A DNA stretch of 64,000 nucleotides. It comes from Gluconacetobacter azotocaptans (GTDB taxonomy: Bacteria; Pseudomonadota; Alphaproteobacteria; Acetobacterales; Acetobacteraceae). Below the pieces are notes generated by a model. The model was not told the origin of the DNA and searched no databases. It saw nothing but the letters and a program-made list of their open reading frames with translations. The stretch covers positions 124,001-188,000 of the forward strand of contig NZ_JABEQF010000002.1 in assembly GCF_014174355.1 (NCBI RefSeq). The letters run 5' to 3'. A program made the translations under genes and the position numbers. Below are positions 39,947 to 55,060 of this stretch, piece by piece. How positions within the stretch are numbered: the stretch's first letter is position 1; each line of letters begins with the position of its first letter.

Positions 39947-39992
39947 GATTCCATGTGCCGTCGTCGGGGCGTCGGGCCGGCCGCTCCCCCTT

Positions 39993-40649
39993 TCAAACGG
40001 GGTTCGAGAGCAGGCGATAGACGGTTCCTGTCACCCAGCGGGCCAGCAGGCCGATGGACAGGAACAGGATTCCCACCAAGGTCACGGGCTCCAGATAACG
40101 ATAATGGAGATCCCCGAACGTGTTGGCCTCTCCCATCATGTCCATGATGGTGATCGAGGACAGGATCGGCGTTTCCTTCAGCAACGCGATCAGATAATTG
40201 CCCATGACCGGAAATGACGGTTTGAGCGCCTGGGGCAGGACGATATGAACCCAGGTCTGGGTCCGCGTCAGGTTGCAGGCCCGCGCGGCTTCCCATTGCA
40301 AGGGGGGGACGCCGGCGATCCCGGCGCGATAGACTTGCGACAGGTACGCCGCGTAATGCACGCCCAGGCCGAAGATTCCGCAGCCGAGTGCGGGCAGGGT
40401 CACGTCGAGATAGGGCAGCACGTAATAGAGAAAGAACAACTGCACCAGCAGCGGTGTGCCGCGGATGAAATGTTCCGACCCGCGCACCAGCGTCCGGACC
40501 GTTCGCGACGGGATCATTTCGGCCAGAACGATCAGCAGGCCCAGGACTGCCGCCAATGCAAAGGACAGGACCGTCGCGACGATGGTTATCCACAGTCCGC
40601 GTGCCAGGACCGGCAGGGCAAGCAGGGCGTAATGGCTGTCCCAGCTCAT
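39993..40649 (-). CDS. ehuD: Ectoine/hydroxyectoine ABC transporter permease
   Basis: Inner-membrane permease of a polar-amino-acid-type importer, 218 residues with five or six helices. The EAA loop is EAARACNLTRTQTWVHIVLPQALKP, here split in the record as EAARACNLTRTQTW and IVLPQALKP. The early FIRGTPLLVQLFFLYY segment is typical of the family. The start at 40649 overlaps the preceding permease by four bases; the longer open frame upstream is that permease out of frame. The ectoine role is inferred from the neighbouring catabolic genes. Confidence 0.85.
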   Translation of the reverse strand: MSWDSHYALLALPVLARGLWITIVATVLSFALAAVLGLLIVLAEMIPSRTVRTLVRGSEHFIRGTPLLVQLFFLYYVLPYLDVTLPALGCGIFGLGVHYAAYLSQVYRAGIAGVPPLQWEAARACNLTRTQTWVHIVLPQALKPSFPVMGNYLIALLKETPILSSITIMDMMGEANTFGDLHYRYLEPVTLVGILFLSIGLLARWVTGTVYRLLSNPV

Positions 40650-41308
40650 GACGGCCTGTTCCCCGAGGGGAGGGCATAGGCCCGTTCGGCACGGCGTACG
40701 CCGTGCAGGATCAGAAGATACAGCATGAAATAGAGCAGCAGGGTTACGATGAACGGCATGATCGTCTGGCCGGTGCGGATACGGAATTGCTGGGCCTGGA
40801 ACGTGATGTCGGAGAGAGAGATCAGCGAGACGATAGCCGTCGCCTTCAGCAGTTCCACGGCATTGTTGCCGAAGACGGGAATCATGCGTGGCACGGCCTG
40901 CGGCAGGATGATGTAGCGTAGCGATTGCCAGCGCGTCAGATTCAGGGCGGTGCTGGCCTCGGCCTGGTCCCGTCCCACTGCCCCGACGGCACTGCGGACG
41001 ATTTCCGCACCGTAGGCGCCGACATTCAGGCCCAGCGCCACGATGCCTGACACCATCGGCGACAGCAGGATGCCGAAGGCCGGCAGCGCATAATAGAGCC
41101 AGAAGATCTGCACGAAGACCGAGGTTCCGCGGAACAGTTCGATATAGCCGATGCTGATGGCGCGCACCGCCCGCCGTTCCGACACGCGGCCAAGACCGAA
41201 CAGGAAGGCGCAGGCCAGAGCCAGGGCGCATCCGCCCATCGTCAGCCAGGCTGTAATCGCCAGCCCCCGCCCCATCGAGACCGCCAGGTCGATCAGGGTC
41301 GCGGTCAT
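40646..41308 (-). CDS. ehuC: Ectoine/hydroxyectoine ABC transporter permease
   Basis: Second inner-membrane permease of the importer, 220 residues. It has ELFRGTSVFVQIFWLYYALP and the EAA-loop part EASTALNLTRWQSLRYIILP, which contacts the ATPase. The ATG at 41308 overlaps the binding-protein stop by four bases (ATGA). It would pair with the next permease as a heterodimer. The gene name is from context, not from a search. Confidence 0.85.
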   Translation of the reverse strand: MTATLIDLAVSMGRGLAITAWLTMGGCALALACAFLFGLGRVSERRAVRAISIGYIELFRGTSVFVQIFWLYYALPAFGILLSPMVSGIVALGLNVGAYGAEIVRSAVGAVGRDQAEASTALNLTRWQSLRYIILPQAVPRMIPVFGNNAVELLKATAIVSLISLSDITFQAQQFRIRTGQTIMPFIVTLLLYFMLYLLILHGVRRAERAYALPSGNRPS

Positions 41309-42237
41309 GGTCTTGGCCCTGCCGTCGGTTGCGGTGCGGCGCACAAATCCGCCCGCGTGCGATGCAGGCTCAGCGCGGGGTCGAACCCATATCGCGTCAG
41401 GAGACGGGCATAGTCACCGTTGGCCTGCAGGGCGGCAAGCGCACGGTCGTAGGCATCGCGCAGGTCGGTTGCGTCACGCGAAAAGGCGGCCCCCGCGCAC
41501 ATGACCGGCGTACCGTCCGCCGGGATCAGGTCGAACCTCCTGGTACCCCACAGATCCAGCAGATGGCGGCCGGACATCGCCGGCAGCGAATAGATCTGGA
41601 TGCGGCCGGTCTCCAGCATGATCATGCCGCTGGGGCCATCGGGGACGGGCACGATCCGCGCGGGCGGGACCCCCGCCGTCAGGGCCAGCCGTTCCTCGCT
41701 GCCACCGGCGGGCACGCCGATCAGCAGGTTCGGGTCGGCGGCGACATCGCGGTAGGATCGTGGGCCGGGGCGTCCCTTGTGCTGCATGATCAGAGCCTCG
41801 CGGTCGCACAGGTCGGGCTGGGAATAGGCGACGGCCATGCACCGGCCGGGCGTCATGAACATGCCGGAATCGATCAGGTCGCTGCGTCCGGCCATCAAGC
41901 CCGGAATCATGGCCCCGTAGCTGGATACCACCCCCCGCACGTCGTCAATCCCCATGCGCCGGAAGACGGCGCGCACCAGGTCGGGACCTGCCCCGCCAAT
42001 GCTGCCATCGGCCCGGATGACGGCCCAGGGGGGTTCGTTCGACATCGCCAGGCGTGCGAAACCTCGCTGGCGCAGGGTCGTCAGGCCCCGTCCCGATTGC
42101 GATCCAGACGGCGATCCTGCCATTGATCCCACGTCGTCGGCGCGGGCCGCCGGGGCGCCGACGATCAGCGTCGCCAGGGCCAGCCCTGCCAGCAGTGCCC
42201 GATGCGGGCGTTCCCGGTTCAGGCGCGGCATGGTCAT
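41305..42237 (-). CDS. ehuB: Ectoine-type periplasmic solute-binding protein
   Basis: Periplasmic substrate-binding protein of 310 residues, SBP_bac_3 fold. It has a signal peptide (ALLAGLALATLIVG, cleavage near ARADD), the ligand-pocket region SNEPPWAVIRADGSIGG, and the block IPGLMAGRSDLIDSGMFM, then RCMAVAYSQP. The last block resembles EhuB-type ectoine binders as I remember them. It would deliver ectoine or hydroxyectoine to the two permeases. It overlaps ehuA and ehuC by four bases each. Confidence 0.82.
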   Translation of the reverse strand: MTMPRLNRERPHRALLAGLALATLIVGAPAARADDVGSMAGSPSGSQSGRGLTTLRQRGFARLAMSNEPPWAVIRADGSIGGAGPDLVRAVFRRMGIDDVRGVVSSYGAMIPGLMAGRSDLIDSGMFMTPGRCMAVAYSQPDLCDREALIMQHKGRPGPRSYRDVAADPNLLIGVPAGGSEERLALTAGVPPARIVPVPDGPSGMIMLETGRIQIYSLPAMSGRHLLDLWGTRRFDLIPADGTPVMCAGAAFSRDATDLRDAYDRALAALQANGDYARLLTRYGFDPALSLHRTRADLCAAPQPTAGPRP

Positions 42238-43004
42238 TCCCCCTGGCTCGACAGGCGCAGGAAGGCCTGGGTCCGCGGGTCGCGGGGGGTGTCGAAGACG
42301 GCGTCGGGCGGCCCGTCCTCGACGATGCGGCCATGGTCGAAAAACAGCACGCGATCGGCGAAATTGCGGGCGAACGACATTTCATGGGTCACCAGCAGCA
42401 TGGTCATGTCCGTTGTGCGGGCGACCGCGTGCAGGACCTGCAGGACCTCGTTGACGCGCAGCGGGTCGAGGGCCGAGGTCGGTTCGTCGAACAGCATGAC
42501 GCGCGGCTGCAGCGCCAGCGCCCGCGCGATGGCCACCCGCTGTTTCTGACCGCCCGACAGGCGGTCGGGATAGTGCGCGGCCTTGTCGGCCAGGCCCATC
42601 AGGTCCAGAAGCTCCATCGCCTTGCGCCGGGCCTCGGGTTCCGATGCGACGCGATTGAGGATCTGCGGCAGCACGATGTTCCGCTCCACCGTCAGATGTG
42701 GAAACAGGCCGAAATGCTGGAAGACCATGCCGACCTGCGCGCGGATGGGCCGCAGGCGGCGTTCGGCGACGTATGCGGGGCCGGTCGCAGTCTCGTCGAA
42801 CAACCGCGCGCCGCCGATTTCGACCTGACCGGAATCGATGGATTCCAACGTCATCAGGATACGCAGGATCGTTGTCTTGCCCGATCCCGACGGCCCGATC
42901 AGGGCCACCTTCTGCCCGGCGGGAATATCGAGGGACAGATTGTCCAGAATACGGGACGATCCATACGATTTCGACAGGCCGGCGATCCGGATCAGGGGCT
43001 GCAT
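42234..43004 (-). CDS. ehuA: Ectoine-type ABC transporter ATPase
   Basis: ATP-binding subunit of 256 residues. Walker A is GPSGSGKT (37-44), the Q-loop lies at VFQHFGLFPHL, the signature is LSGGQ (149-153), Walker B is VMLFDE (169-174) and the switch His is His207. It belongs to the polar amino acid importer group. It starts 16 bases after eutE and overlaps ehuB by four bases. Confidence 0.9.
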   Translation of the reverse strand: MQPLIRIAGLSKSYGSSRILDNLSLDIPAGQKVALIGPSGSGKTTILRILMTLESIDSGQVEIGGARLFDETATGPAYVAERRLRPIRAQVGMVFQHFGLFPHLTVERNIVLPQILNRVASEPEARRKAMELLDLMGLADKAAHYPDRLSGGQKQRVAIARALALQPRVMLFDEPTSALDPLRVNEVLQVLHAVARTTDMTMLLVTHEMSFARNFADRVLFFDHGRIVEDGPPDAVFDTPRDPRTQAFLRLSSQGE

Positions 43005-43020
43005 CGAGGGGGCCCCGAAA

Positions 43021-44022
43021 TCACGCCGGAACGCCGATGACGGCCACGCAGTCTCCGGGCTTGACCAGCCCGGGGAAATGCCGCGCGATCAGGATGCCGT
43101 CGCGACGCGCGCGCAGTTCGACGGGCGCGGCCCCGGTGCGGTCCATGGTATGGATCCGCGCCAGCACCTGGCCGGCGGCCACAGCGGCTTGCAGGTCGAC
43201 GCAGGGTTCCAGCAGGCCGGCCTGTTCGGCGAACAGGAAGCTGTCGTCGCCGGGCATGTCCAGCCATTGCGTCGGCGCAGCCTCGACCGGGCCGGGAACG
43301 ATGCCGGCATGGCGCAGGACGTTCAGGACGCCGCGCCGGGCGATCGACACCGTTCGGGCGCTGGACGTGCCGCCGCCGCCCAGTTCGGTGGTAACGAAGA
43401 TCTTGCCCATCTCCTCGGCCGCGCTGTCGTACATGCCGCGGGCGTCGATCTCCACCATCCGCAGGGCGTACGGGGCGCCGAAGGCCGCGACGGCGGCGAA
43501 GCTCCGCTCTTCCTGCGCCTTGTCCGGCAGGACGTGCGCCGCCGCGAACGGAATGAAATCCAGCGTCCGGCCGCCGGAATGGAAATCCAGGACGATGTCG
43601 GCCATCGGCAGCAGCGTGCGCTGGAAATAATCGGCGATCTTCTCGGTCACCGTTCCGTCCGGGCGGCCGGGGAAGGTCCGGTTCATGTTGCCCCGGTCGA
43701 TCGGCGAGGTTCGGGTCGCGGCCTGAAAAGCCGGATAGTTCATGGCAGGGACGATGATGACGCGCCCGCGCACATGTTCGGCCGCCAGGGTCCGCGCCAG
43801 GTCGAACAGGACGATCGGGCCCTCATATTCGTCGCCATGATTGCCGCCCGTCAGCAGGGCCGTCGGGCCATCGCCGTTACGGACGACCGTCAGAGGAATC
43901 ATGATCGACCCCCAGGCGGAATCGTCACGGCTGTAAGGCAGGCGCAGGAAACCATGATGGACGCCGTCGCGGTCGAAGGGAACGGTGGATGCGATCGGGG
44001 AGGGCAGGCGCGTATCGGTCAT
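43021..44022 (-). CDS. eutE: N-alpha-acetyl-diaminobutyrate deacetylase (EutE/DoeB)
   Basis: Zinc deacylase of the succinylglutamate-desuccinylase/aspartoacylase family, 333 residues, as long as DoeB/EutE. Zinc ligands are His62 and Glu65 (GGNHGDEYEG) and His148 (LDFHSGG); the substrate-site block is IDRGNMNRTFPGRPDG. In ectoine breakdown it removes acetate from N-alpha-acetyl-L-2,4-diaminobutyrate. The start at 44022 is seven bases after eutD; the open frame upstream belongs to eutD. The specific reaction is inferred from the cluster. Confidence 0.88.
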   Translation of the reverse strand: MTDTRLPSPIASTVPFDRDGVHHGFLRLPYSRDDSAWGSIMIPLTVVRNGDGPTALLTGGNHGDEYEGPIVLFDLARTLAAEHVRGRVIIVPAMNYPAFQAATRTSPIDRGNMNRTFPGRPDGTVTEKIADYFQRTLLPMADIVLDFHSGGRTLDFIPFAAAHVLPDKAQEERSFAAVAAFGAPYALRMVEIDARGMYDSAAEEMGKIFVTTELGGGGTSSARTVSIARRGVLNVLRHAGIVPGPVEAAPTQWLDMPGDDSFLFAEQAGLLEPCVDLQAAVAAGQVLARIHTMDRTGAAPVELRARRDGILIARHFPGLVKPGDCVAVIGVPA

Positions 44023-44029
44023 CGTCGGA

Positions 44030-45211
44030 TCAGTTCTTGATGAAAAGCTTGCGGGGGACGTCGGCCAGGCATTCATGGCCGGTATCGGTGATCAGGATAC
44101 TTTCGGTCGTCTCGAACCCCATCGTGTCCAGCCACAGGCCGGTCATGAAATGGAAGGTCATGCCCGGGCGCAGCTCGGTCCGGTCGCCGGGGCGCAGGCT
44201 CATGGTCCGCTCGCCCCAGTCGGGGGGATAGGACAGGCCGATCGGATAGCCCGTCCGGTTGTCCTTGGTGATGCCGTATCGTTTGAGGACGCGGAAGAAG
44301 GCGTTCGCGATATTTTCGCAGGTGTTGCCCGGCCGTGCGGCGGCAAGTCCTTCTTCCATGCCCTCCAGCGTCGCTTTCTCGGCGTCGAGAAAGGCCTGCG
44401 TCGGCTTGCCCAGAAAGACCGTGCGTGACAACGGGCAGTGATAACGGCGATAGCATCCCGCGATTTCGAAGAATGTTCCCTCGCCGTCGCGCATCGGACG
44501 GTCGTCCCAGGTCAGGTGCGGCGCCGATGCGTCTTCCCCCGACGGCAGCAGCGGAACGATGGCCGGATAATCGCCACCATGGCCGCCGGCGCCGCGCAGG
44601 CCGGAATCATAGATTTCGGCCACCAGGTCGCATTTGCGCATCCCGGGTTCGATCTTTTCGAAGATGCGCTGATGCATGGCCTCCACGATCCGGGCCGCAC
44701 GGCGCATATACTCGATTTCCTGCGGGCTCTTGATCGCGCGCTGCCAGTTGACCAGCGCGGTGGCGTCGACGAAGCCGGCATTGGGCAGGCCGGCCTGCAG
44801 GGCCGCGTAGGCGGCGGCGGAAAACCAGTAATTGTCCATCTCGACGCCGATGGTCAGCTTGCCCCAGCCACGCTGCGCCAGGATTGTGGACAGGTAGCCC
44901 ATCGGGTGTCGTTCGGTGGACTGGACGTAGATGTCGGGATAGCCGAGGATCGCGTCCTCACCGATCCATGCCGTACGGCGCGCGCCGTTCGCATCCTGCC
45001 CCCGGCCGAACCACAAGGGTGGCCCGTCGGGGGGAACGATGACGCATTGATGGACATAGAACGACCAGCCGTCATAGCCCGTCAGCCATGCCATGTTGGA
45101 CGGATCGCTGACGATCAGAAGATCGATGCCGCGCGCGGCCATTGCGGTGCGCGTCTTGTGCAGCCGCGCCGCATATTCGCCGAGGGTGAAATTCAGTCTG
45201 CTCTCATCCAT
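44030..45211 (-). CDS. eutD: Ectoine hydrolase (EutD/DoeA), M24 fold
   Basis: Pita-bread-fold (M24) hydrolase of 393 residues that would open the ectoine ring to acetyl-diaminobutyrate. Family marks are NFTLGEYAARLHKTRTAM, LIVSDPSNMAWLTGYDGWSF and FFEIAGCYRRYHCPLSRT, a block typical of ectoine hydrolases and unlike true Xaa-Pro peptidases, whose metal ligands are mostly missing. The ATG at 45211 begins MDESRLNFT; an upstream frame extension has no ribosome site. It is the marker gene of ectoine catabolism. Confidence 0.9.
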   Translation of the reverse strand: MDESRLNFTLGEYAARLHKTRTAMAARGIDLLIVSDPSNMAWLTGYDGWSFYVHQCVIVPPDGPPLWFGRGQDANGARRTAWIGEDAILGYPDIYVQSTERHPMGYLSTILAQRGWGKLTIGVEMDNYWFSAAAYAALQAGLPNAGFVDATALVNWQRAIKSPQEIEYMRRAARIVEAMHQRIFEKIEPGMRKCDLVAEIYDSGLRGAGGHGGDYPAIVPLLPSGEDASAPHLTWDDRPMRDGEGTFFEIAGCYRRYHCPLSRTVFLGKPTQAFLDAEKATLEGMEEGLAAARPGNTCENIANAFFRVLKRYGITKDNRTGYPIGLSYPPDWGERTMSLRPGDRTELRPGMTFHFMTGLWLDTMGFETTESILITDTGHECLADVPRKLFIKN

Positions 45212-45254
45212 GGCCTGTCTTCCCGTAGTGTCCTGCCAGCGTATCAATCGTGTC

Positions 45255-45274
45255 GCCTCCGCGAGGCATGTCAA
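45255..45274 (-). promoter_or_regulatory. Possible promoter/operator ahead of eutD
   Basis: On the minus strand a consensus TTGACA (45274-45269) is followed by a perfect GCCTC/GAGGC inverted repeat (45255-45267) in the spacer. The matching -10 box is poor, so an activator or another start may be used. The spacing suits control of eutD separately from the upstream receptor gene. Confidence 0.35.
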
Positions 45275-45294
45275 CCAGGCGGAGACGCGTGGGA

Positions 45295-47643
45295 TCAGAA
45301 TCGTGCGCGGATCGTCCCGAAGAACTGCCGTGGCGCGCCGATCATGAAGGACTGGTAATCCCCCATGAACGGGTTTCCGTTCTCACCCATCGTGCTGATG
45401 TAAGAAGCGTTGAAAAGATTATAGACATTGAATTCAAGCGACAGATTCTGGAAAATTCCGTGCTTGCCGAACTGGTATTTGGCGCCCAGGTTCGCGACCC
45501 AGTACCCGGGGACCGAGGTGTCGTTCATATAGCTGAAATAACGACGGCCGATATAGTTGACGTCGAAATGGGCGGATGCCGGGCCGTAGGTGTAATCGGC
45601 GCTCGCCTTGTACATGAAGCTCGGGTAGTTCACCACGTTCTTGCCGGCGAGGTCGTAGGTTACGCCGCCCGTGGTGATATTCGATCCGTATGTAGAGTGG
45701 TTGTAGCTGACGCTGTTGTAGATCGAAAGATTGCGGATCGGGCGGATCGTCAGGCCGGCATCGACGCCGTTCATCGTGACGGATCCCACATCCACCATGG
45801 TCGAAACCGGATTGATGATCGACGCCGAGGCCAGGGATTGCAGACGATTCGAGAAGTCGACACGGTAAAGATTGAGCGATGCACTGATCAGTTGCGAATT
45901 GTAACGATATCCCAGTTCATACGCCCAGTCGGATTCGGGCTTGATGGTCTTCTGCAGTTGCTGGAACGTCGCCTGGTTGGTCACACCCCAGGCCTGTCCC
46001 ATCTGATAGCCGCCCTGGGCGTAGGAACGCCGGTTTTCCGAGATGTCGAAATACAGTTCATGTCCGGGCAGGAATTCCCAGTTTGCGCTGATATGCGGCA
46101 GGAAGGCCGCCGCGGTCGTCAGCGATCCGGACGGCAGGACGGCCTGGCCGGTATAGGCCGCGTCGTTGTAGGTGGCGCCCCCACGGGTCGTCACCAGCAT
46201 CGACCGGAAGCCGGCATGCAGCGACAGGTTGGGCAGGATATGATAGGTGTCCTGGAGGTGGTACTGGAAGGTGTTCGTGTTGTACGTGGTGCCCCACAAT
46301 TCGCCGATCGGGTTCCTGAAGCTGCTGAGCGACAGCGGGTTCAGTGGCGCACCCTGACCCAGAAGCGGCTCCTCATACGCGAAATAATTCATGGAATACT
46401 GGTTGTTTTCATACCAGATTCCGGATTCGATCGTGTTGTGTGCGATGTCGTAGGTCAGGCCGGTCGTGAAACCGTAACGGGCCAGCGATCCTTCATGTTC
46501 CTGATATCGCAGCGGCGCGCCGTTCGGCGAGGACGCAAACGGACTGGCATATCCGCCCCATCCCAGGTTGGAATGGCCGTAGATCGTCGAATCCCAGGTC
46601 AGGCGATTGGTCAGGGCGATATGGGCGTTGAGGCCGCCCAGGTAATCGCGCGTGATGGCGCTTGAATCGTAGAACATCGCATCCAGCGGATCGTTCGTCA
46701 GTTGCTGGCCGTTCTGGTAGGTTCCCTGGGCCGCCAGATAGGCGCCCCGATAGTCCGGAAAGAAATTGTCCAGGCGCGGTCCCAGCGTATGAAGATAGTT
46801 CAGCGACAGGTCCTGGTAGCTGAGATACTGCTGGTCATCCCAATCGAAGAAGGCGGAAATGCGGCTGTTGTCGCCCAGGGGCTGCACCAGCTTGGCGTTG
46901 ACCTTCTGGTCGAACAGCGGCCCATGTCCCTTCCATTTGTCGCTGTCGCTGCGTGCGTAGGACACATAGAATTTTGTGCCCGACGGCGTCAGCTTGCCGC
47001 TGTTCGCCCGGATGAAGGTACGAAACGCGTCGTTGCTGCCGAATGTCTGGCTGACGTCGAACTGGCGCCGGTCGGTCGGATCCATCGAAAAGAACTGGAT
47101 GGCGCCGCCCAGATTGTTCGTGCTGGGCGTATCGACCGAGCCCGCGCCCTGCGAGACGCTCATGCGACCGATATTGTCGGGAATGATGGCCGCGTTGATG
47201 CCCAGGCCATTGTAATTTCGGTATGTCAGTTCGCCCAGAGGAATACCGTCCAGCGTGAAGCCGAGTTGGTTCTGATAGAAGCCCCGGACATAGAGCTGGG
47301 TCCCCCAGCTGTCCTGTCCCATCGGGTCTGCGGCGGTCAGCAGGACGCCGGGCTGCTGGGCGATGACCTTCAGCGGGTTGGTTCCGGGAACGAATTTTGC
47401 GATCTCCGCCGCGGTGACGACCTGCTCCGGCCCGTGGGAGACGTGGCGCCCGACGATACCGACCTCCTCGTCCGAGGCTTTCGCCAGGGCGGAGCGACGC
47501 GACGCGGGGGAAGCGGCGTGGACCAACCGGTGAGGCGTGCCGGCCGCGTGGACGACAGGGCCGGCCGCCCGTCCTTCCAGGCTCCATGCCGAGACGAACA
47601 GGGTGGTGCAGATCATGTGGTAGGCCAGGCCCCCTCGTTTCAT
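45295..47643 (-). CDS. TonB-dependent receptor of the ectoine island
   Basis: Outer-membrane TonB-dependent receptor of 782 residues. A signal segment (MICTTLFVSAWSLEGRA) is followed by a plug with QVVTAAEIAKFVPGTNPLKV, LYVRGFYQNQLGFTLDGIP and NLGGAIQFFSMDP, then a barrel ending in a terminal Phe. It resembles non-siderophore receptors (for example for vitamins, sugars or osmolytes) in lacking a signalling extension; the substrate is unknown. It lies 83 bases upstream of eutD on the same strand, so it probably serves the ectoine operon, which would be unusual. The ATG at 47643 is the one giving a signal peptide. Confidence 0.88.
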   Translation of the reverse strand: MKRGGLAYHMICTTLFVSAWSLEGRAAGPVVHAAGTPHRLVHAASPASRRSALAKASDEEVGIVGRHVSHGPEQVVTAAEIAKFVPGTNPLKVIAQQPGVLLTAADPMGQDSWGTQLYVRGFYQNQLGFTLDGIPLGELTYRNYNGLGINAAIIPDNIGRMSVSQGAGSVDTPSTNNLGGAIQFFSMDPTDRRQFDVSQTFGSNDAFRTFIRANSGKLTPSGTKFYVSYARSDSDKWKGHGPLFDQKVNAKLVQPLGDNSRISAFFDWDDQQYLSYQDLSLNYLHTLGPRLDNFFPDYRGAYLAAQGTYQNGQQLTNDPLDAMFYDSSAITRDYLGGLNAHIALTNRLTWDSTIYGHSNLGWGGYASPFASSPNGAPLRYQEHEGSLARYGFTTGLTYDIAHNTIESGIWYENNQYSMNYFAYEEPLLGQGAPLNPLSLSSFRNPIGELWGTTYNTNTFQYHLQDTYHILPNLSLHAGFRSMLVTTRGGATYNDAAYTGQAVLPSGSLTTAAAFLPHISANWEFLPGHELYFDISENRRSYAQGGYQMGQAWGVTNQATFQQLQKTIKPESDWAYELGYRYNSQLISASLNLYRVDFSNRLQSLASASIINPVSTMVDVGSVTMNGVDAGLTIRPIRNLSIYNSVSYNHSTYGSNITTGGVTYDLAGKNVVNYPSFMYKASADYTYGPASAHFDVNYIGRRYFSYMNDTSVPGYWVANLGAKYQFGKHGIFQNLSLEFNVYNLFNASYISTMGENGNPFMGDYQSFMIGAPRQFFGTIRARF

Positions 47644-47998
47644 GGGCGATATCCTTCTATCAGAAGCGTCAATAATGGGTGGGGCGTGCCGGGGGCGCGC
47701 GCGGCTCGCCGCGCGGCGCGCATCACACGGAATGGGCGAAGTTGCGCAGGCCGTTACTTTGTCTGTCTGGTCGACGACATGAGGATCTAACCGTGAATGA
47801 TGGCTCTGTATCGGCCGTTTGCGACTTCGACGGCTGTCCACTCCCGGAGTGTTGCGAGCACGTCATCATAACGAAATCAGAATAACGGCGAGGAAGCGCA
47901 GGAAATAACTATTATATGTCAATTTAATAATTAAATTATGCGCGTATGGCGGAGATTGCGCATGAAATATGTGACATTGGGGGGTGATGCAACCGTTC
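47644..47998. other. Regulatory interval between receptor and AsnC genes
   Basis: About 355 bases with no gene. The right half is strikingly AT-rich for this genome and contains, on the minus strand, TTGACATATAAT and a perfect AT palindrome. It most likely holds the promoter and operator for the receptor-eut-ehu operon and possibly the terminator of the AsnC gene. Confidence 0.6.
47921..47937. promoter_or_regulatory. AT-rich palindrome, candidate AsnC/Lrp operator
   Basis: AATTTAAT (47921-47928) and ATTAAATT (47930-47937) are perfect inverted repeats around a single A. Lrp/AsnC proteins bind AT-rich palindromes of about this size. It overlaps a TTGACATATAAT stretch on the minus strand about 280 bases before the receptor start. 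Confidence 0.5.
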
Positions 47999-48484
47999 CT
48001 ACACGGGCTGCTCCTGGTCGGGCAGGACGATCGGCATGGCGAAGCCGGCCTTGACGCGGTCCATCACGACAAGGGTCTTGAACCCCTTGATGTCAGGATT
48101 TTCGTAGAAGAAACGGCGGGTGAACTGTTCGTAATCCTCCATGTCGCAGGCGGTGACATAGAGGACGAAATCGGTTTCGCCTGTTACGTAAAATCCACTG
48201 ACGACTTCCGGCGTATTGCGGATTGCCTTCTTGAATCGGTCGACGATGTCCGAGCGCTCGCGCTCCAGCGTGACCAGTACCATCATCTGGATCGGGCGCC
48301 CCACCGCGCGGGCCGAGACGATCGAGACATCCGATTCGATGATACCGGTGCTGCGCAGCCGCTTCAGGCGCCGCTGGCATGCGGTGGCCGACAGTCCGAC
48401 CATGTCGCCGATGACCTCGGACGTCAGGCGATTGTTCTTCTGCACGATTTCCAGGATGCGTGCATCGATATGATCATATTGCAT
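47999..48484 (-). CDS. AsnC/Lrp-family regulator of ectoine catabolism (DoeX-like)
   Basis: Lrp/AsnC regulator of 161 residues: an N-terminal helix-turn-helix (about 5-60; MVGLSATACQRRLKRLRSTG) and a RAM ligand-binding domain (about 68-145) with SGFYVTGETDFVLYVTACD. In Halomonas and rhizobial ectoine clusters an AsnC-type gene (doeX/asnC) sits with the doe/eut genes. Here it lies between the two divergent wings and is divergent from doeC by 171 bases. It likely responds to a pathway intermediate such as diaminobutyrate or its acetyl form; that is inference. Confidence 0.88.
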   Translation of the reverse strand: MQYDHIDARILEIVQKNNRLTSEVIGDMVGLSATACQRRLKRLRSTGIIESDVSIVSARAVGRPIQMMVLVTLERERSDIVDRFKKAIRNTPEVVSGFYVTGETDFVLYVTACDMEDYEQFTRRFFYENPDIKGFKTLVVMDRVKAGFAMPIVLPDQEQPV

Positions 48485-48655
48485 GATTCTGTCCTTATGG
48501 CGCAGGAATTATGTGAGGTTGAAGATAAAATAGAGGAAAATCACCGACGTATTGATTCATAAAGACGAAAAACGGATAGGCTTCGCCACTATGATCATTC
48601 TGTTGGCGATCCGGCAAGGGCCGGGACGTCGTTTCGACAGGGCACGGAGGTCTGG

Positions 48656-50134
48656 GTGATCGGTCTTGCGCGAGAGCGTCTGCGACATGTCGGAAGGCAT
48701 GATTTCATCGCGGGGGCGTCCTATATCGACGGAATCTGGAAAGACGGCATGCGCCGGGCCGAACTCTGCGATCCGGCGACCGGGGAAGTGATTGCGTCCG
48801 TCGGCCAATGCGACGTTTCCGACATGGCGCGCGCGATAGATGCGGCGGACGCCGCGTTCGGGGTGTGGCGCACGGTGCTTCCGGCGGTGCGGGGCGACCT
48901 GCTGCGCGGATGGGCTGCCCTGATACGTGAAAATATCGAAGATCTGGCAACGATCGTGACGTGCGAGCAGGGTAAGCCGCTCGCGGAATCCCGCGGCGAG
49001 ATTATGTACGCCGCGGGGTTTGTCGACTGGTTCGCCGCCGAGGGCGAGCGAGCGTACGGCGAGACGATTCCCTCTCACAAGGTGGCCAGCCAGTTGAGCG
49101 TGCGCCTGCAGCCCGTCGGCATCGTAGCCGTGGTGACGCCGTGGAATTTTCCCAGCGCCATGATCACGCGCAAGGCGGCGGCTGCCCTGGCGGCGGGATG
49201 CCCGGTGATCGTGAAGCCGGCGTGCGAAACGCCATTGTCGGCTCTGGCGCTGGCGCGACTGGCGCAGCAGGCCGGATTGCCGGCCGGGCTGTTTCAGGTG
49301 GTCTGCGGCGCGCCCGCGCCGCTGGTCGGGCAGCTTGTGGACGATACGCGTGTGCGCGCGCTGTCCTTCACGGGTTCCACCGCGATCGGCCGTCTGCTGC
49401 TGGAAGGGGCGGCGCGGACGGTCAAGCGGGTGTCGATGGAACTGGGCGGGCATGCGCCATTCATCGTTTTTGACGATTCGGACGTGGATTTCGCGGTCCG
49501 GGGGGGTATGGCGGCCAAATTCGCGACGTCGGGCCAGGATTGTCTGGCTGCGAACAGGATCTATGTCCAGCGCGGTGTTTACGACGCGTTCGTCACGGGC
49601 ATGGGCCGCGCAGTCGCCGCCCTGCGTGTTGGTCATGGCCTGACCGAAGGAACGGACATCGGGCCGATGACAACCCGGTCGGTGGTTGAAAAATGCCTGG
49701 GCCAGATCGACGACGCGACAAGGCGGGGCGCGCGCCTGATCGTCGGCGATCAGGCCGCGCGTCCCACCCCGCGCTTCGTCATGCCGACGCTGCTGGCGGA
49801 CGTGACGGACGACATGCTGATTGCGCGTGAAGAAACGTTCGGACCGGTGGCGGCGATCCTGCCCTTCGACACGGAGGACGAGGTCATTGCCCGCGCAAAT
49901 CGGAGCGAAAGCGGGCTTGCGGCTTATGTCTATACGGACGGACTGCGGCGCGCGACACGCGTGTCCGATCGTCTGGAATACGGAATGGTTGGCGTCAACA
50001 CGGCATCCTTCACAGGATCGCCTATTCCGTTCGGTGGCTGGAAACAGTCGGGCCTGGGGCGCGAGGGATCCCGTCATGGCCTGACCGAATTCCTGGAACC
50101 CAAATATGTCTGCCTCGGCGATCTGGCAGCGTAA
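48656..50134 (+). CDS. doeC: Aldehyde dehydrogenase (DoeC-like, aspartate semialdehyde oxidation)
   Basis: NAD(P)-dependent aldehyde dehydrogenase of 492 residues, of the succinate-semialdehyde dehydrogenase group. Active-site Asn164 (TPWNFP), Lys187, cofactor loop FTGSTAIG (238-245), general base Glu262 (MELGGHAPF) and nucleophile Cys296 (SGQDCLAAN) are all in place. In ectoine breakdown it would oxidise L-aspartate semialdehyde to aspartate. The start is GTG at 48656 with CACGGAGG five bases ahead. It opens the right wing. Confidence 0.88.
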   Translation: MIGLARERLRHVGRHDFIAGASYIDGIWKDGMRRAELCDPATGEVIASVGQCDVSDMARAIDAADAAFGVWRTVLPAVRGDLLRGWAALIRENIEDLATIVTCEQGKPLAESRGEIMYAAGFVDWFAAEGERAYGETIPSHKVASQLSVRLQPVGIVAVVTPWNFPSAMITRKAAAALAAGCPVIVKPACETPLSALALARLAQQAGLPAGLFQVVCGAPAPLVGQLVDDTRVRALSFTGSTAIGRLLLEGAARTVKRVSMELGGHAPFIVFDDSDVDFAVRGGMAAKFATSGQDCLAANRIYVQRGVYDAFVTGMGRAVAALRVGHGLTEGTDIGPMTTRSVVEKCLGQIDDATRRGARLIVGDQAARPTPRFVMPTLLADVTDDMLIAREETFGPVAAILPFDTEDEVIARANRSESGLAAYVYTDGLRRATRVSDRLEYGMVGVNTASFTGSPIPFGGWKQSGLGREGSRHGLTEFLEPKYVCLGDLAA

Positions 50135-50146
50135 GCGAGAGAGAAC

Positions 50147-51535
50147 ATGACAGATATTGCGAACATCTCGACCCTTGACCGTGCAAGCGTGCTGCACCCG
50201 TTTACCCAGCTCAAGGATTTCGCATCCGGCAAGGCAGGCGATCCGACCATCGTCACCGGCGGCAAAGGCGTGCGGATCCAGGACGCGACCGGGCGGGAAC
50301 TGATCGACGGGTTTGCCGGCCTGTACTGCGTCAATATCGGCTATGGCCGCACCGAGGTCGCCGACGCTATTTCGCGGCAGGCGCACCAGCTGGCCTATTA
50401 TCATACCTATGCCGCCCACACGACCGATGAACTGGCGATTCTGGCCGACCGGCTGGTCCGCATGGCTCCTGGCAAGGCCAGCAAGGTCTTTTTCGGGATG
50501 TCTGGCTCCGATGCCAACGAGACCCAGGCGAAACTGGTCTGGTACTATAACAACCTGCGCGGGCTGCCGAAGAAGAAGAAGATCATTTCCCGCCAGCGCG
50601 GCTATCATGGCTGCTCGGTCTTCTCGGGCTCGCTGACGGGCATGAGTTTCTATCACGACCACATGGACCTGCCGTACGGCGGCGTCCTGCATACCGGATC
50701 GCCGCATTATTACTGGAATGCCGAGACGGGCGAGGATGAAGAAGCCTTTTCCCGTCGTCGCGCGGCCGAACTGAACGCCCTGATCGAGCGCGAGGGGCCG
50801 GAGACGGTGGGCGCCTTCATTGCCGAACCGGTTCTGGGTACCGGTGGCATCACTCCGCCACCCGCCGGCTACTGGCGCGAGATCCAGGCCGTCCTGCGTC
50901 GCCATGACGTTCTGCTGATCGCCGACGAGGTGATTTGCGGTTTCGGGCGGACGGGCGCGCCGTTCGGGTCCCATCTTTACGGGATGGAACCCGACCTGGT
51001 GACGGTGGCCAAGGGGTTGACGTCGGGCTACGTTCCGCTGTCAGGCGCGATCGTCAGCGAAAAGGTATTCAAGGTGATGGAGGACGGTGCCGACCGCGTG
51101 GGATCGTTCTCACATGGCTATACCTATTCCGGCCATCCCATCGCAGCCGCGGCGGCGAACGCTGTTCTGGATATCTGCGAAAAGGAAAACCTGACCGAAC
51201 ACGCCCGAACGACCGGCGCCTATCTGCAACGGCAGATGGCGGCTGCGTTTTCGCAGCTCGATATCGTGGGCGAGGTTCGGGGCGTGGGCATGATGAGTGC
51301 CCTGGAATTCGTGGCCGACCGGAGCACGAAGGCCCGCTTCGACCCGTCGCTGAAGGTGGCGGCGCGGATTTCGCAGGCCGCGCGCGATCGCGGGCTGATC
51401 GCCCGGGCCATGCCGCATGGCGACATCCTGGGCTTTGCGCCGCCGCTGGTGATGACCGAAGCCGAGGTCGACGACATGATCGCGATCGCGTCCGCCGCCG
51501 TCCGGCAGGTGATGGACGAGCTGGCGCGCGGCTGA
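50147..51535 (+). CDS. doeD: Class III aminotransferase (DoeD-like, diaminobutyrate transaminase)
   Basis: PLP-dependent class III aminotransferase of 462 residues. The cofactor-binding Asp260 is in LLIADEVICGFGRTG and the Schiff-base Lys289 in VTVAKGLTSGYVPLS; FFGMSGSDANETQAKLV is typical of omega-amino acid transaminases. In the ectoine pathway it would convert diaminobutyrate to aspartate semialdehyde, the substrate of the preceding dehydrogenase. It starts 12 bases after doeC. By sequence alone, other amine substrates are possible. Confidence 0.88.
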   Translation: MTDIANISTLDRASVLHPFTQLKDFASGKAGDPTIVTGGKGVRIQDATGRELIDGFAGLYCVNIGYGRTEVADAISRQAHQLAYYHTYAAHTTDELAILADRLVRMAPGKASKVFFGMSGSDANETQAKLVWYYNNLRGLPKKKKIISRQRGYHGCSVFSGSLTGMSFYHDHMDLPYGGVLHTGSPHYYWNAETGEDEEAFSRRRAAELNALIEREGPETVGAFIAEPVLGTGGITPPPAGYWREIQAVLRRHDVLLIADEVICGFGRTGAPFGSHLYGMEPDLVTVAKGLTSGYVPLSGAIVSEKVFKVMEDGADRVGSFSHGYTYSGHPIAAAAANAVLDICEKENLTEHARTTGAYLQRQMAAAFSQLDIVGEVRGVGMMSALEFVADRSTKARFDPSLKVAARISQAARDRGLIARAMPHGDILGFAPPLVMTEAEVDDMIAIASAAVRQVMDELARG

Positions 51536-51570
51536 CAATGGGCCCGGTGATGGGGAAAGGAGTGAAGGCG

Positions 51571-52578
51571 ATGCATCATCCCGCGCTTATCGACGTAATC
51601 GCGGCGTGTGCGCGCCTGCGTGGCCACGTGGTCCGGACCCCATTGCCGCCGTCGCCCACGTTGCACAAATCGTGCGGGCACGAGGTTCTGCTGAAGCTCG
51701 AAAGCCGCCAGACGACGGGCAGCTTCAAGCTGCGCGGCGCCACGAACGCGGTTCTGATGCTGGACCCTGGCGCCGCCACGCGCGGGGTTATCGCCGCCTC
51801 GACCGGCAATCATGCCCGGGCACTGGCGTATGCCGCGCGTGCACAGGGCCTGCGCTGCGTCGTCTGCATGTCGGAACTGGTGCCGGCGAACAAGGTGGAT
51901 GCGGTGCGGGCGCTGGGGGCTGACGTGCGGATCGTCGGGCAGTCGCAGGACGATGCACAGCACGAGGTCGACCGTCTGGTGGTCCAGGACGGACTGTCAC
52001 CCGTGCCGCCCTTCGACGATGCGCGGGTGATCGCCGGGCAGGGCACGATCGCGGTCGAAATCCTCGAGGCCCGGCCCGATACGGCGACACTGGTCGTGCC
52101 GCTGTCGGGCGGTGGTCTTGCCGGTGGGATCGCGATGGCGGCGAAGGCGTTGCAGCCGTCGATTCGCGTGGTCGGGGTCAGCATGACGCGCGGTGCGGCA
52201 ATGCATGCCAGCCTGGCGGCCGGCGGGCCCGTCGAGGTACGCGAACTGCCGACCCTGGCGGATTCTCTGGGCGGGGGGATCGGCCTGGCCAACCGCCATA
52301 CATTCGAGCTGGTCCGCGCAGGCCTGGACGAGGTCGTACTGCTGTCCGAAGCAGAAATCGCCGATGGCATCCGGCACGCGTACCTGCACGAGCAGGAAAT
52401 CGTCGAGGGGGCGGGTGCCGTCGGCATTGCCGCCGTCCTGGCTGGCCGGGTCCGGTCGGCCGGCCCGATTGCGATCGTGGTCTCGGGCCGGAATATCGAC
52501 ATGACCCGGCATCTGCGGATCGTCACCGATGAAACGTCCAGGGACGAATATCCCGGGGCGGATGGAATCCTGTCATGA
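51571..52578 (+). CDS. eutB: Threonine dehydratase-like enzyme (EutB)
   Basis: PLP-dependent fold-type II lyase of 335 residues. The Schiff-base Lys53 is in GSFKLRGATNA and the phosphate loop is SGGGLAGG (179-186). Members placed next to eutC in ectoine clusters are called EutB and are proposed to act on hydroxyectoine-derived intermediates. I chose the ATG at 51571 because AAAGGAG precedes it; an ATG at 51538 is also in frame. It overlaps eutC by four bases. Confidence 0.85.
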   Translation: MHHPALIDVIAACARLRGHVVRTPLPPSPTLHKSCGHEVLLKLESRQTTGSFKLRGATNAVLMLDPGAATRGVIAASTGNHARALAYAARAQGLRCVVCMSELVPANKVDAVRALGADVRIVGQSQDDAQHEVDRLVVQDGLSPVPPFDDARVIAGQGTIAVEILEARPDTATLVVPLSGGGLAGGIAMAAKALQPSIRVVGVSMTRGAAMHASLAAGGPVEVRELPTLADSLGGGIGLANRHTFELVRAGLDEVVLLSEAEIADGIRHAYLHEQEIVEGAGAVGIAAVLAGRVRSAGPIAIVVSGRNIDMTRHLRIVTDETSRDEYPGADGILS

Positions 52579-53537
52579 AAATCCTGAAGGAAGCCGATCT
52601 GCGTCATCTGATGGCGCTGGATCTGGACGTTGTGAACACGATCGAGGGGGCGTTCCTTGCGCTGGCCACGCTGCCGGTCGCCATGCCCGACATCCTGCGC
52701 CTGGATATAGCTGACCGGGGTGAGGTGGATGTGAAGACCGCCTATGTCCCCGGCATCGAGAGTTTCGCGATCAAGATCAGCCCCGGTTTCTTCGGTAATC
52801 CGGCGCTGGGCCTGCCCAGTCTCAATGGCTTGATGGTGCTGTTGAGCGCCCGCACGGGTCTGACCGAGGCCCTGTTGCTGGATAACGGATACCTGACCGA
52901 CCTGCGTACCGCCGCGGCCGGCGGTGTGGCGGCACGGTGGTTGTCCCGGCCGGACTCCCGTATTGCCGCCATTTATGGCGCAGGCGTGCAGGCCCGCCTG
53001 CAGCTTCAGGCCCTGACCCTGGTCCGCCCGATCGAGTGCGCGCGGATCTGGGCGCGGCGTCCCGAACAGGCGCAGGAGACTGCCGCATGGTGCGCGACGC
53101 GGTTTGGCATTCCGGTCGTCGCCGTCGACGATCCGGCTGTGGCGGCGGAGGGGGCGGATATTCTGGTCACCACGACGCCGGCCACCCAGCCGGTGCTGCG
53201 GCGCGACTGGCTGCAGCCCGGCCAGCATGTGACGGCGATGGGGTCGGACGCCGAGCACAAGAACGAACTTGATCCGCGCATCGTCGCGGATGCCGCCCCC
53301 TATGTCGCGGATACTCTCGCGCAGACCCGGCGTCTGGGGGAATTGCGCCGCGCGCTGGCGGACGGCCTGGTGCCTGCCGATCGGCCCCTGCATGAACTGG
53401 GCGCCATCATTGCGGGACACCAGCCGGGGCGTGTGGAGGCTGGGGCGATCACGGTCGCTGACCTGACCGGCACGGGCATCCAGGACACCGCCATCGCCAC
53501 CCTGGCCTATCGCCGCGCCGTCACCGCAGGCCCCTGA
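52575..53537 (+). CDS. eutC: Ornithine cyclodeaminase-like enzyme (EutC)
   Basis: NAD-binding protein of 320 residues from the ornithine cyclodeaminase/mu-crystallin family. It has VDVKTAYVPGIESFAIKISP, the Rossmann motif AAIYGAGVQARLQL (about 130-145) and the HVTAMGSDAEHKNELDP block. In ectoine clusters this partner of EutB is thought to help turn hydroxyectoine into ectoine. The ATG overlaps the eutB stop (ATGA). It ends the right wing and converges on the ferric reductase gene. Confidence 0.87.
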   Translation: MKILKEADLRHLMALDLDVVNTIEGAFLALATLPVAMPDILRLDIADRGEVDVKTAYVPGIESFAIKISPGFFGNPALGLPSLNGLMVLLSARTGLTEALLLDNGYLTDLRTAAAGGVAARWLSRPDSRIAAIYGAGVQARLQLQALTLVRPIECARIWARRPEQAQETAAWCATRFGIPVVAVDDPAVAAEGADILVTTTPATQPVLRRDWLQPGQHVTAMGSDAEHKNELDPRIVADAAPYVADTLAQTRRLGELRRALADGLVPADRPLHELGAIIAGHQPGRVEAGAITVADLTGTGIQDTAIATLAYRRAVTAGP

Positions 53538-53576
53538 GGGACGATGGAACCGGGCGAATATCAGGCGCCGCCCGGA

Positions 53577-54395
53577 TCAGGTATTTTCCGCCTGGGGGTC
53601 CTCGATCCGGGCGCCGCCGTTTGAGGCGCCCCGCCGCCAATATCCCGCCGCACGAATCTGGCGGCGGTCCAGGGCCTCGTCGGCCATCAGGTAGGCCCGC
53701 AGGCGGCGGGCGGTCTCGATCTCGGCCCCGATCCAGACATGGACGTCGCGCGTGGGTAGGGATACCCCGCGCAGCGCGTCGTCCATTACTCGTGACAGGC
53801 CGGCGGGGGTGCCGTTGCGATGCAGCCAGACGATGGTGGCGTCGGCCGCGCTGGGCAGGCGGCGCTCCTCCTGGCTGTCGGCCACCTCGATCAGGGCGGT
53901 GACGCGGGTGCCGGGCGGCAGTTCTTCCAGCCGCCGCGCGATGGCGGGCAGGGCGGTTTCGTCGCCGATCAGCAGATAAGATGCGTAATCGTCGGGAATC
54001 AGGACCGACCCGCGCGGGCCGCCGACGCCCAGCCATTGCCCCGGCCGGGCCTGCGCCGCCCAGGATGTCGCCGGGCCGTCGCCGTGCAGGACGAATTCGA
54101 TGCTCAGTTCGCCCGTCGTGGGGTCGAAACGCCGGGGCGTATAATCGCGGCTGATGGGCGGCGGCCCGTCGTCCGCGCCGCCCGCACCGGGCAGGATGGG
54201 CTGGTCCGACCCGGCCGGGGGGAAGAACAGTTTCACATGATCGTCCGCCGCCGCGCTGGTGAAGCCAGCCAGGGCCGTGCCGGTGAAGATGATGCGGCGC
54301 ATGCGCGGCGACAATTGCTCGACGCGCGCGACCTGGACGGGGCGCAGATGCAGGGGGTGGCGCACGCGCACCGGCGTGCGAAAGAGAAGGTTCAT
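53577..54395 (-). CDS. yqjH: Siderophore-interacting ferric reductase (YqjH/ViuB type)
   Basis: FAD-dependent reductase of 272 residues that releases iron from ferric siderophores in the cytoplasm. The FAD-binding part (about 20-135) carries RDYTPRRFD. The NAD(P)H part has LLIGDETALPAIARRLEEL, EVADSQEERRLP and the C-terminal GYWRRGASN typical of SIP proteins. It follows a PadR gene by 35 bases, as YqjH and YqjI are paired in E. coli (there divergently). It could serve the siderophore receptor at 3.1 kb. Confidence 0.9.
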   Translation of the reverse strand: MNLLFRTPVRVRHPLHLRPVQVARVEQLSPRMRRIIFTGTALAGFTSAAADDHVKLFFPPAGSDQPILPGAGGADDGPPPISRDYTPRRFDPTTGELSIEFVLHGDGPATSWAAQARPGQWLGVGGPRGSVLIPDDYASYLLIGDETALPAIARRLEELPPGTRVTALIEVADSQEERRLPSAADATIVWLHRNGTPAGLSRVMDDALRGVSLPTRDVHVWIGAEIETARRLRAYLMADEALDRRQIRAAGYWRRGASNGGARIEDPQAENT

Positions 54396-54430
54396 GGCGG
54401 GCGGCCTTTGCCAGGGCGGGACGGGAGGGA

Positions 54431-55060
54431 TCAGCCGGCGCCGCCGGCGATCTCGGTGGCGGCGCGGGCCAGGATCTGCGCGATGCGGCGGGCCTCGTCA
54501 GGCGAGCAGCCGCGCTTGCGCATCAGGGCACGTTTCAGGGTGTGGCGGGCCTGATGCAGTTCGTCGGCGGCCTGGGGGTCGTCCGCGTCGACGCCCGCGA
54601 ACGCCTCGCGCACCTCGGCCATGCGGCCGCCGATCCGTGCCAGCGTATCGAGGATGGCATCGGCCTGCGCGCGGTAGGCCTCCAGGTGGGCACGCCCAGC
54701 CTCGGTCAGGGTGTAGAGCTTGCGGTTGCCGTCCTGCGTCACGGCGGCGTAGCCGATCTCGTCCAGGTAGGTCAGGGCCGGATAGATCATGCCGGGGCTG
54801 GGCGTATAGAAGCCGCCGGACCGTTCCTCCAGCAGGCGGATCATCTCGTAGCCATGGGCGGGACGTTCCGCCAGCAGGGCCAGAAGAACCAGTTGGAGGT
54901 CTTCCGAGCCGAGCTTGCGTCCGGTGGGGAAATCGCCGCCGCCGAATCCTCGGCCGAAGCTGTCGCCGAAGCCGCGGCCGAAACCGTGGCGTCCGCCGCG
55001 GCGGCCGATGGCGTGCAGGATGGAATGAAAGCGATGGGGGGGGATATGATCTCTAAACAT
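54431..55060 (-). CDS. yqjI: PadR-family regulator, YqjI-like
   Basis: Winged-helix repressor of 209 residues. An N-terminal His/Gly/Arg-rich tail (about 1-45; HIPPHRFHSILHAIG, GGRHGFGRGFG) resembles the metal-binding extension of the nickel/iron sensor YqjI. The PadR core follows (LVLLALLAERPAHGYEMI, FYTPSPGMIYPALTYLDEIG) with a C-terminal dimerisation helix. It probably represses itself and the ferric reductase downstream. Overlapping palindromes lie directly upstream of its start. Confidence 0.87.
   Translation of the reverse strand: MFRDHIPPHRFHSILHAIGRRGGRHGFGRGFGDSFGRGFGGGDFPTGRKLGSEDLQLVLLALLAERPAHGYEMIRLLEERSGGFYTPSPGMIYPALTYLDEIGYAAVTQDGNRKLYTLTEAGRAHLEAYRAQADAILDTLARIGGRMAEVREAFAGVDADDPQAADELHQARHTLKRALMRKRGCSPDEARRIAQILARAATEIAGGAG

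Follow-up and report, generated by a model that had tools for sequence, protein, structure and literature searches.

A probable ectoine and 5-hydroxyectoine consumption island headed by a TonB-dependent receptor gene in Gluconacetobacter azotocaptans

Introduction

Among the described gene clusters for ectoine catabolism, the closest to the locus considered here are ehuABCD-eutABCDE of Sinorhizobium meliloti, the wider set of alphaproteobacterial ectoine clusters, and the doe genes of Halomonas elongata, which are ordered doeABX-doeCD. Our locus is a 13.6-kb block at positions 39953 to 53586 of a 64,000-nt stretch of Gluconacetobacter azotocaptans DNA (NZ_JABEQF010000002.1; genome of 4.13 Mb in 57 contigs, completeness 100); the whole of this stretch is called the window, and coordinates are positions within it unless another locus is named. 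The block is very probably an island for the consumption of ectoine and 5-hydroxyectoine, as judged by comparison of its sequence with these systems. It has the Ehu transporter in common with S. meliloti, and EutB to EutE, AsnC and Ssd/Atf in common with alphaproteobacterial clusters, its EutD being 74-83% identical to nearly all of the Rhizobiales EutDs fetched (61% in one). It differs from the alphaproteobacterial clusters in having neither EutA nor EnuR, in the outer-membrane receptor gene that heads the eutDE-ehu wing, and in the disposition of two wings around an lrp gene. With H. elongata, whose DoeX is an AsnC homologue according to the available text of a review (PMC5924519), the window shares the hydrolase, the deacetylase, an AsnC-type DoeX, DoeC and DoeD, but unlike H. 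elongata it links to these an Ehu ATP-binding cassette (ABC) transporter, EutBC and the outer-membrane receptor. Clusters of two genomes in genus g92 (G092 and G204) possess the same Lrp type (66% identity in G092) and a doeD 78-80% identical to that of the window (78% in G092), and eutA was not found in them; unlike the window, they retain EnuR, have no receptor in the fetched stretch and carry eutBC in line with eutDE. The ectoine catabolic pathway is known; its receptor-headed, EnuR-free and EutA-free form is new. In the open-access literature, as judged from the titles listed, we found no publication that places a TonB-dependent receptor in an ectoine cluster, and none that addresses ectoine catabolism in acetic acid bacteria or Komagataeibacter. 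The terms "TonB" and "Acetobacter" are likewise absent from the available main text of PMC5924519 and PMC13188858.

Results

The island comprises 12 genes, all of them open frames, and the ectoine gene set and order proposed by an earlier, sequence-only reading of this DNA were borne out, as all 12 frames lie where that reading had placed them. The left wing is encoded on the minus strand as tonB-eutD-eutE-ehuA-ehuB-ehuC-ehuD and the right wing on the plus strand as doeC-doeD-eutB-eutC. Scores are given in bits against curated NCBIfam cut-offs, which are passed by EutB, EutC, EutD, EutE, EhuB, EhuC and EhuD and narrowly missed by EhuA. The ectoine hydrolase EutD/DoeA (44030-45211; the start is a predicted one, the longest frame beginning at 45274) scores 782 bits to TIGR02993 (cut-off 613) and 557 bits to solved DoeA (6twk/6twj), as against 65 bits to the best peptidase model and at most 86 bits to the best other PDB chain. 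An ordinary Xaa-Pro peptidase, with which the sequence-only reading had considered that EutD might group, was rejected on these scores; the EutD tree holds EutDs only. A glutamate that we take to be Glu255 of DoeA is kept in window EutD when the two are aligned. In a quick tree of 92 EutDs, the five acetous sequences (the window and four relatives) form one clade with a support of 99 by the Shimodaira-Hasegawa-like approximate likelihood ratio test, nested in a loosely resolved 64-row group of mostly Rhizobiales and a few Paracoccaceae. The tree, in which long branches are flagged, was built from the window, 11 Acetobacteraceae sequences and 80 public loci, the latter being the best 80 by EutE similarity among the matches listed, with up to 10 kb on each side and a lean to rhizobia.

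The frame adjacent to eutD encodes the N-alpha-acetyl-diaminobutyrate deacetylase EutE/DoeB (43021-44022; predicted start, longest frame beginning at 44076), with 605 bits to TIGR02994 (cut-off 403) and 511 bits to the deacetylase 6twm/6twl; 3na6, a chain named by its broad family alone, follows at 500 bits. The periplasmic ectoine-binding protein EhuB (41305-42237) scores 236 bits to TIGR02995 (cut-off 191) and 266 bits to 2q88/2q89, the next PDB chain reaching 50. Of five residues that we take to be ligand contacts in EhuB, Glu21, Tyr60, Phe80 and Arg85 are kept and Phe24 is replaced by Trp. The titles of 2q88 and 2q89 omit the name EhuB, and it is the review, in its available part, that describes them as EhuB with ectoines (PMC5924519). 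The remaining transporter genes are ehuA, the ABC ATPase (42234-43004; TIGR03005, 337 bits, slightly below the cut-off of 345, and placed also by operon position), and the permease genes ehuC (40646-41344; TIGR03004, 256 bits, cut-off 197) and ehuD (39993-40649; TIGR03003, 243 bits, cut-off 205). In the right wing, eutB (51571-52578) encodes a hydroxyectoine dehydratase (TIGR02991, 484 bits, cut-off 413) and eutC (52575-53537) an ornithine-cyclodeaminase-like protein (TIGR02992, 488 bits, cut-off 472). The NCBIfam scan gave no ectoine-specific match for DoeC or DoeD, and both are placed by family and position: doeC/ssd (48656-50134) encodes an aldehyde dehydrogenase (PF00171; 579 bits to the succinate-semialdehyde dehydrogenase model, below its cut-off of 646), and doeD/atf (50147-51535) a class-III aminotransferase that passes NF005684 (778 bits, cut-off 687), a subfamily model without a named function.

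These matches bear on the alternative that the substrate is something other than free ectoine: either a related acetyl-diamino compound, as the sequence-only reading had also raised, or a tetrahydropyrimidine-containing siderophore, with import by the receptor in either case. A tetrahydropyrimidine ring occurs in some siderophores, the island does carry a siderophore-type receptor, and doeC and doeD were not seen near the four related clusters described below. However, EhuB, EutD and EutE exceed their curated ectoine cut-offs and score far higher to solved ectoine proteins than to most other chains, EutE being nearly tied with 3na6. As all three match solved ectoine proteins best, this alternative retains little support and appears very improbable; the island enzymes are unlikely to act on anything but an ectoine. 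Production of ectoine by this genome was rejected on the absence of any EctC match even at E 10, a search confined to EctC (EctA, EctB and EctD were not searched) and without a positive control, since none of 14 control genomes held a protein above that model's cut-off.

The block was probably acquired. In the genome of a sister species (G158), which has no EutD above the cut-off, both flanks align at 83-94% identity, and no more than 35 bases separate the counterparts of window positions 39952 and 53587; the block ends are the ends of these blastn alignments, and all 12 genes, the receptor included, fall between them. The G+C content of the island is 64.1%, compared with 67.8 and 68.4% in the flanks. 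The left junction follows closely on an inverted repeat that is accompanied by a run of T and, read by eye, resembles a cold-shock gene terminator, and the right junction lies inside the last bases of the next gene. Within a collection of one genome per species, EutD above the cut-off occurs in one of the 14 genomes of the genus, namely this one, and in 9 of 397 in the family. Weighing against acquisition, the empty site is seen in one species only and could reflect a deletion there, although 13 of the 14 genus genomes are without EutD. Two further genomes (G152 and G160) align along the right flank, short receptor-like pieces apart in G160, and not along the left, and are uninformative on the empty site. 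Of at least 60 direct repeat families 20 were listed, and of 237 inverted pairs 25, and none of those listed joins the island ends. Named plasmids were rejected as carriers of close copies: the best EutD match was about 83% identical in one search (all 20 listed matches from Rhizobium) and about 80% in a second (all five listed from Rhizobium), and all 19 named plasmids with a receptor match were below 60% identity. The gene to the right of the island (53577-54395) is read as encoding a siderophore-interacting protein, with no NCBIfam model match. Together with a PadR-type regulator (42 bits, under the cut-off) it makes up the bordering stretch 53577-55060, which belongs to the old flank because it is present at the same site in the sister species.

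The receptor is the most unusual part of the island. The outer-membrane receptor that the sequence-only reading had noted is confirmed by Pfam Plug and beta-barrel matches; its gene, tonB (45295-47643, minus strand; predicted start, longest frame beginning at 47841), lies inside the block at the head of the left wing. In a second Acetobacteraceae genus (g31), of which 49 genomes were covered, four have EutD above the cut-off, and in all four of their clusters a receptor 76-78% identical to that of the window stands directly before eutD-eutE-ehuA-B-C-D, accompanied by the same lrp type (81-82% identical) and eutBC; the receptor search covered the g31 genomes that have EutD. EutA and EnuR were seen in none of the five receptor-bearing clusters. 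Acetic acid bacteria possess other TonB-dependent receptors of the same family, siderophore- or FecA-like and likewise built of Plug and barrel, but a quick tree that sets the five cluster receptors beside the seven genus receptors retrieved as loci groups those that precede eutD in a separate clade with a support of 100. Among the 13 other genomes of the genus, none of which has EutD above the cut-off, the highest-scoring receptor reaches 58% identity, and a 253-residue piece elsewhere in this genome reaches 63%. A receptor of this family was found in none of the 80 public ectoine loci and in none of seven other Acetobacteraceae EutD loci, some of which end at contig edges. A receptor without any tie to the cluster was rejected on the recurrence at the same place in g31, the supported clade and the lower identity elsewhere.

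A further feature common to the five clusters is a conserved 21-base element, GTTATTCTGRTTTCGWTATGA, at 47866-47886 on the minus strand, a candidate promoter or operator. Each of the five tonB genes, whose starts are partly approximate, has it some 120 to 245 bases upstream, with zero to two mismatches to a consensus drawn from the same five sequences. With up to four mismatches allowed, it occurs once in the window and nowhere else in 188 loci (2.28 Mb), and when the window upstream region was Markov-shuffled 200 times, matches as good as the real one arose 0, 0 and 1 times for three relatives. There is no second copy near doeC. Scans for sigma-70 promoters (2 against a shuffled mean of 3.6) and terminators (8 against 7.6) gave no excess.

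The tie between receptor and ectoine rests on linkage and co-inheritance, that is, on the shared block, the recurrence in g31 and the clade, and whether the receptor carries ectoine is, by such comparison, about an even bet. Several observations count against its doing so, and are accommodated by a reading in which the ectoine island is the same in every respect except the receptor step: the receptor would be a passenger iron-siderophore receptor, and ectoines would enter through porins. The cargo of such receptors is usually an iron complex, and the distant matches of this one are solely to siderophore or FecA-type models, with 110 bits to TIGR01783, the TonB-dependent siderophore receptor model, below its cut-off of 223.5. 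Each genome of the genus holds 8 to 22 matches to the receptor family, some of them pieces, and a second receptor piece (47% identity) lies at the edge of the stretch around one related cluster; with a family this large, and that second piece, finding a receptor beside any given gene is no rarity here. Among the related clusters, those of G353 and G421 hardly differ in EutD and receptor, so that the four amount to about three cases. A solute of 142 Da should fit through porins, and the review takes diffusion of ectoines into the periplasm to be passive, with porins as the probable route (PMC5924519). However, a passenger does not readily explain why the receptor is kept directly before eutDE-ehuABCD at 76-78% identity in two genera, why the upstream element was seen nowhere else in the 188 loci, or why no equally close receptor exists in the 13 other genus genomes. 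We regard the passenger reading as a serious contender that nonetheless falls somewhat short of an even chance, and we are similarly tentative about the full proposal that in some acetic acid bacteria ectoines cross the outer membrane by active, TonB-dependent transport rather than through porins, in an EnuR-free AsnC/Lrp cluster with the 21-base element as its promoter or operator.

The regulator between the wings is an AsnC/Lrp protein resembling DoeX (47999-48484, minus strand; Pfam AsnC_trans_reg, PF01037, and helix-turn-helix). Scanning of the island stretch agreed with the sequence-only reading that EutA and EnuR are absent from it, and the whole-genome searches for both that this reading had suggested were also run. 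Searched with EnuR of another Acetobacteraceae cluster, the genome yielded 19 matches, led by two MocR proteins of 36 and 30% identity that score 375 and 407 to the EhuR/EnuR model (cut-off 480), as against 562 to 606 for three cluster EnuRs, rhizobial-type EnuRs not being scored. A quick tree with 37 rows unites 30 cluster EnuRs, hand-picked from 76 loci with a match (a 31st, from L176, was left out as short), in one group with a support of 98, and the seven best matches of this genome fall outside it. By model cut-off and tree, EnuR was thus not found in the genome, and the two MocR proteins were rejected as candidates. Their frames, read without a family scan, adjoin an MFS transporter in one case and cytochrome bd oxidase and nitrilase genes in the other.

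For EutA, no protein exceeds the cut-off of 318 bits, whereas two cluster EutAs score 406 and 336. One full-length homologue of 234 bits lies on the same contig, outside the window and about 75 kb from the island (L009:9481-10260, equivalent to C2:88481-89260 of this genome); it is probably a paralogue and may help the island in trans. Its gene adjoins that of a D-amino-acid dehydrogenase, in a separate cluster that also encodes a class-III aminotransferase (NCBIfam matches for these two enzymes) and, from frames read by eye, a RidA-type protein, a GntR regulator and an oxygenase reductase.

These gaps do not make the pathway new. In the available parts of the published surveys, asnC is present in 494 of 539 ectoine clusters and enuR in 456, being missing from 83, and eutA is missing from many (PMC5924519); enuR is present in 278 of 363 and missing from 85 (PMC8739950); and a eutA homologue is absent among Halomonadaceae and from the ehuBCDA-type clusters of Paraburkholderia, Caballeronia and Trinickia (PMC13188858). 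EutA was found in 63 of the 80 public loci, some of them short or cut, and EnuR in 73; five had neither. Because AsnC/Lrp is standard and clusters without enuR or eutA are already published, the new regulation envisaged by the sequence-only reading need not be invoked. The same gaps might instead be taken to mean that the block is in decay or works only in part, unable without EutA and EnuR to use hydroxyectoine and misregulated, as EutA is not in the island and EnuR not in the genome. This appears improbable, given that every frame is open, that the same absences recur in all five receptor-bearing clusters, and that many published clusters have no eutA or enuR.

The Lrp type of the window also stands beside eutD in Microvirga sp. 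KLBC 81 (L049:505-2588; 72% identity), alone among the 80 public loci, as the best Lrp relative in the other 79 reaches at most 87 bits. By sequence, at least two Lrp types accompany ectoine clusters. The effector of AsnC/DoeX is called unclear in the available text of the review (PMC5924519).

Neither doeC nor doeD was seen near the four g31 clusters, and the closest doeD elsewhere in those genomes is 38% identical, with none at E 1e-60 in one of them; these absences weigh against the ectoine-consumption reading, and the g31 clusters may end at diaminobutyrate or rely on a different transaminase. The window doeD is instead 78% identical to that of the G092 cluster, and the island thus resembles a mosaic drawn from two sources. 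In the other g92 genome (G204; L176:14967-16368), doeD is in two pieces with no doeC beside it, and the downstream pathway or the assembly may be broken there. Three more Acetobacteraceae genomes (G002, G014 and G051; L172, L173 and L174, the contigs of L172 and L174 being short) hold an EutD above the cut-off, and window-like eutE, eutB and eutC were not seen in the stretches retrieved; these EutDs may be orphan or repurposed hydrolases. Within the genus of the window, two genomes (G155, L046; G154, L047) encode an EutD-like M24 protein of 215 and 213 bits (cut-off 613), possibly a different amidohydrolase branch.

Discussion

Taken as a whole, the comparisons permit a model for the island, in which the enzyme steps are those given for homologues in the available text of published work (PMC5924519, PMC13188858, PMC8739950). 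Ectoines would reach the periplasm, probably helped by the TonB-dependent receptor, where EhuB would capture them for import by EhuACD. EutD would then open the ring to yield N-alpha-acetyl-diaminobutyrate, which EutE would deacetylate to diaminobutyrate, and DoeD and DoeC would convert the latter to aspartate. EutBC may act on the hydroxy derivative without EutA. In the absence of EnuR, the AsnC/Lrp protein would be the sole local regulator, probably acting near two promoters and presumably controlling both wings.

The model nevertheless offers points of entry into ectoine use by acetic acid bacteria. The association of the receptor with ectoine genes in two genera opens to test the assumption of the review that ectoines diffuse in passively, probably by way of porins (PMC5924519). 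A naturally EnuR-free cluster would allow the part played by AsnC/DoeX to be examined with no repressor present, and a cluster with EutBC and no EutA provides a setting in which to test hydroxyectoine use.

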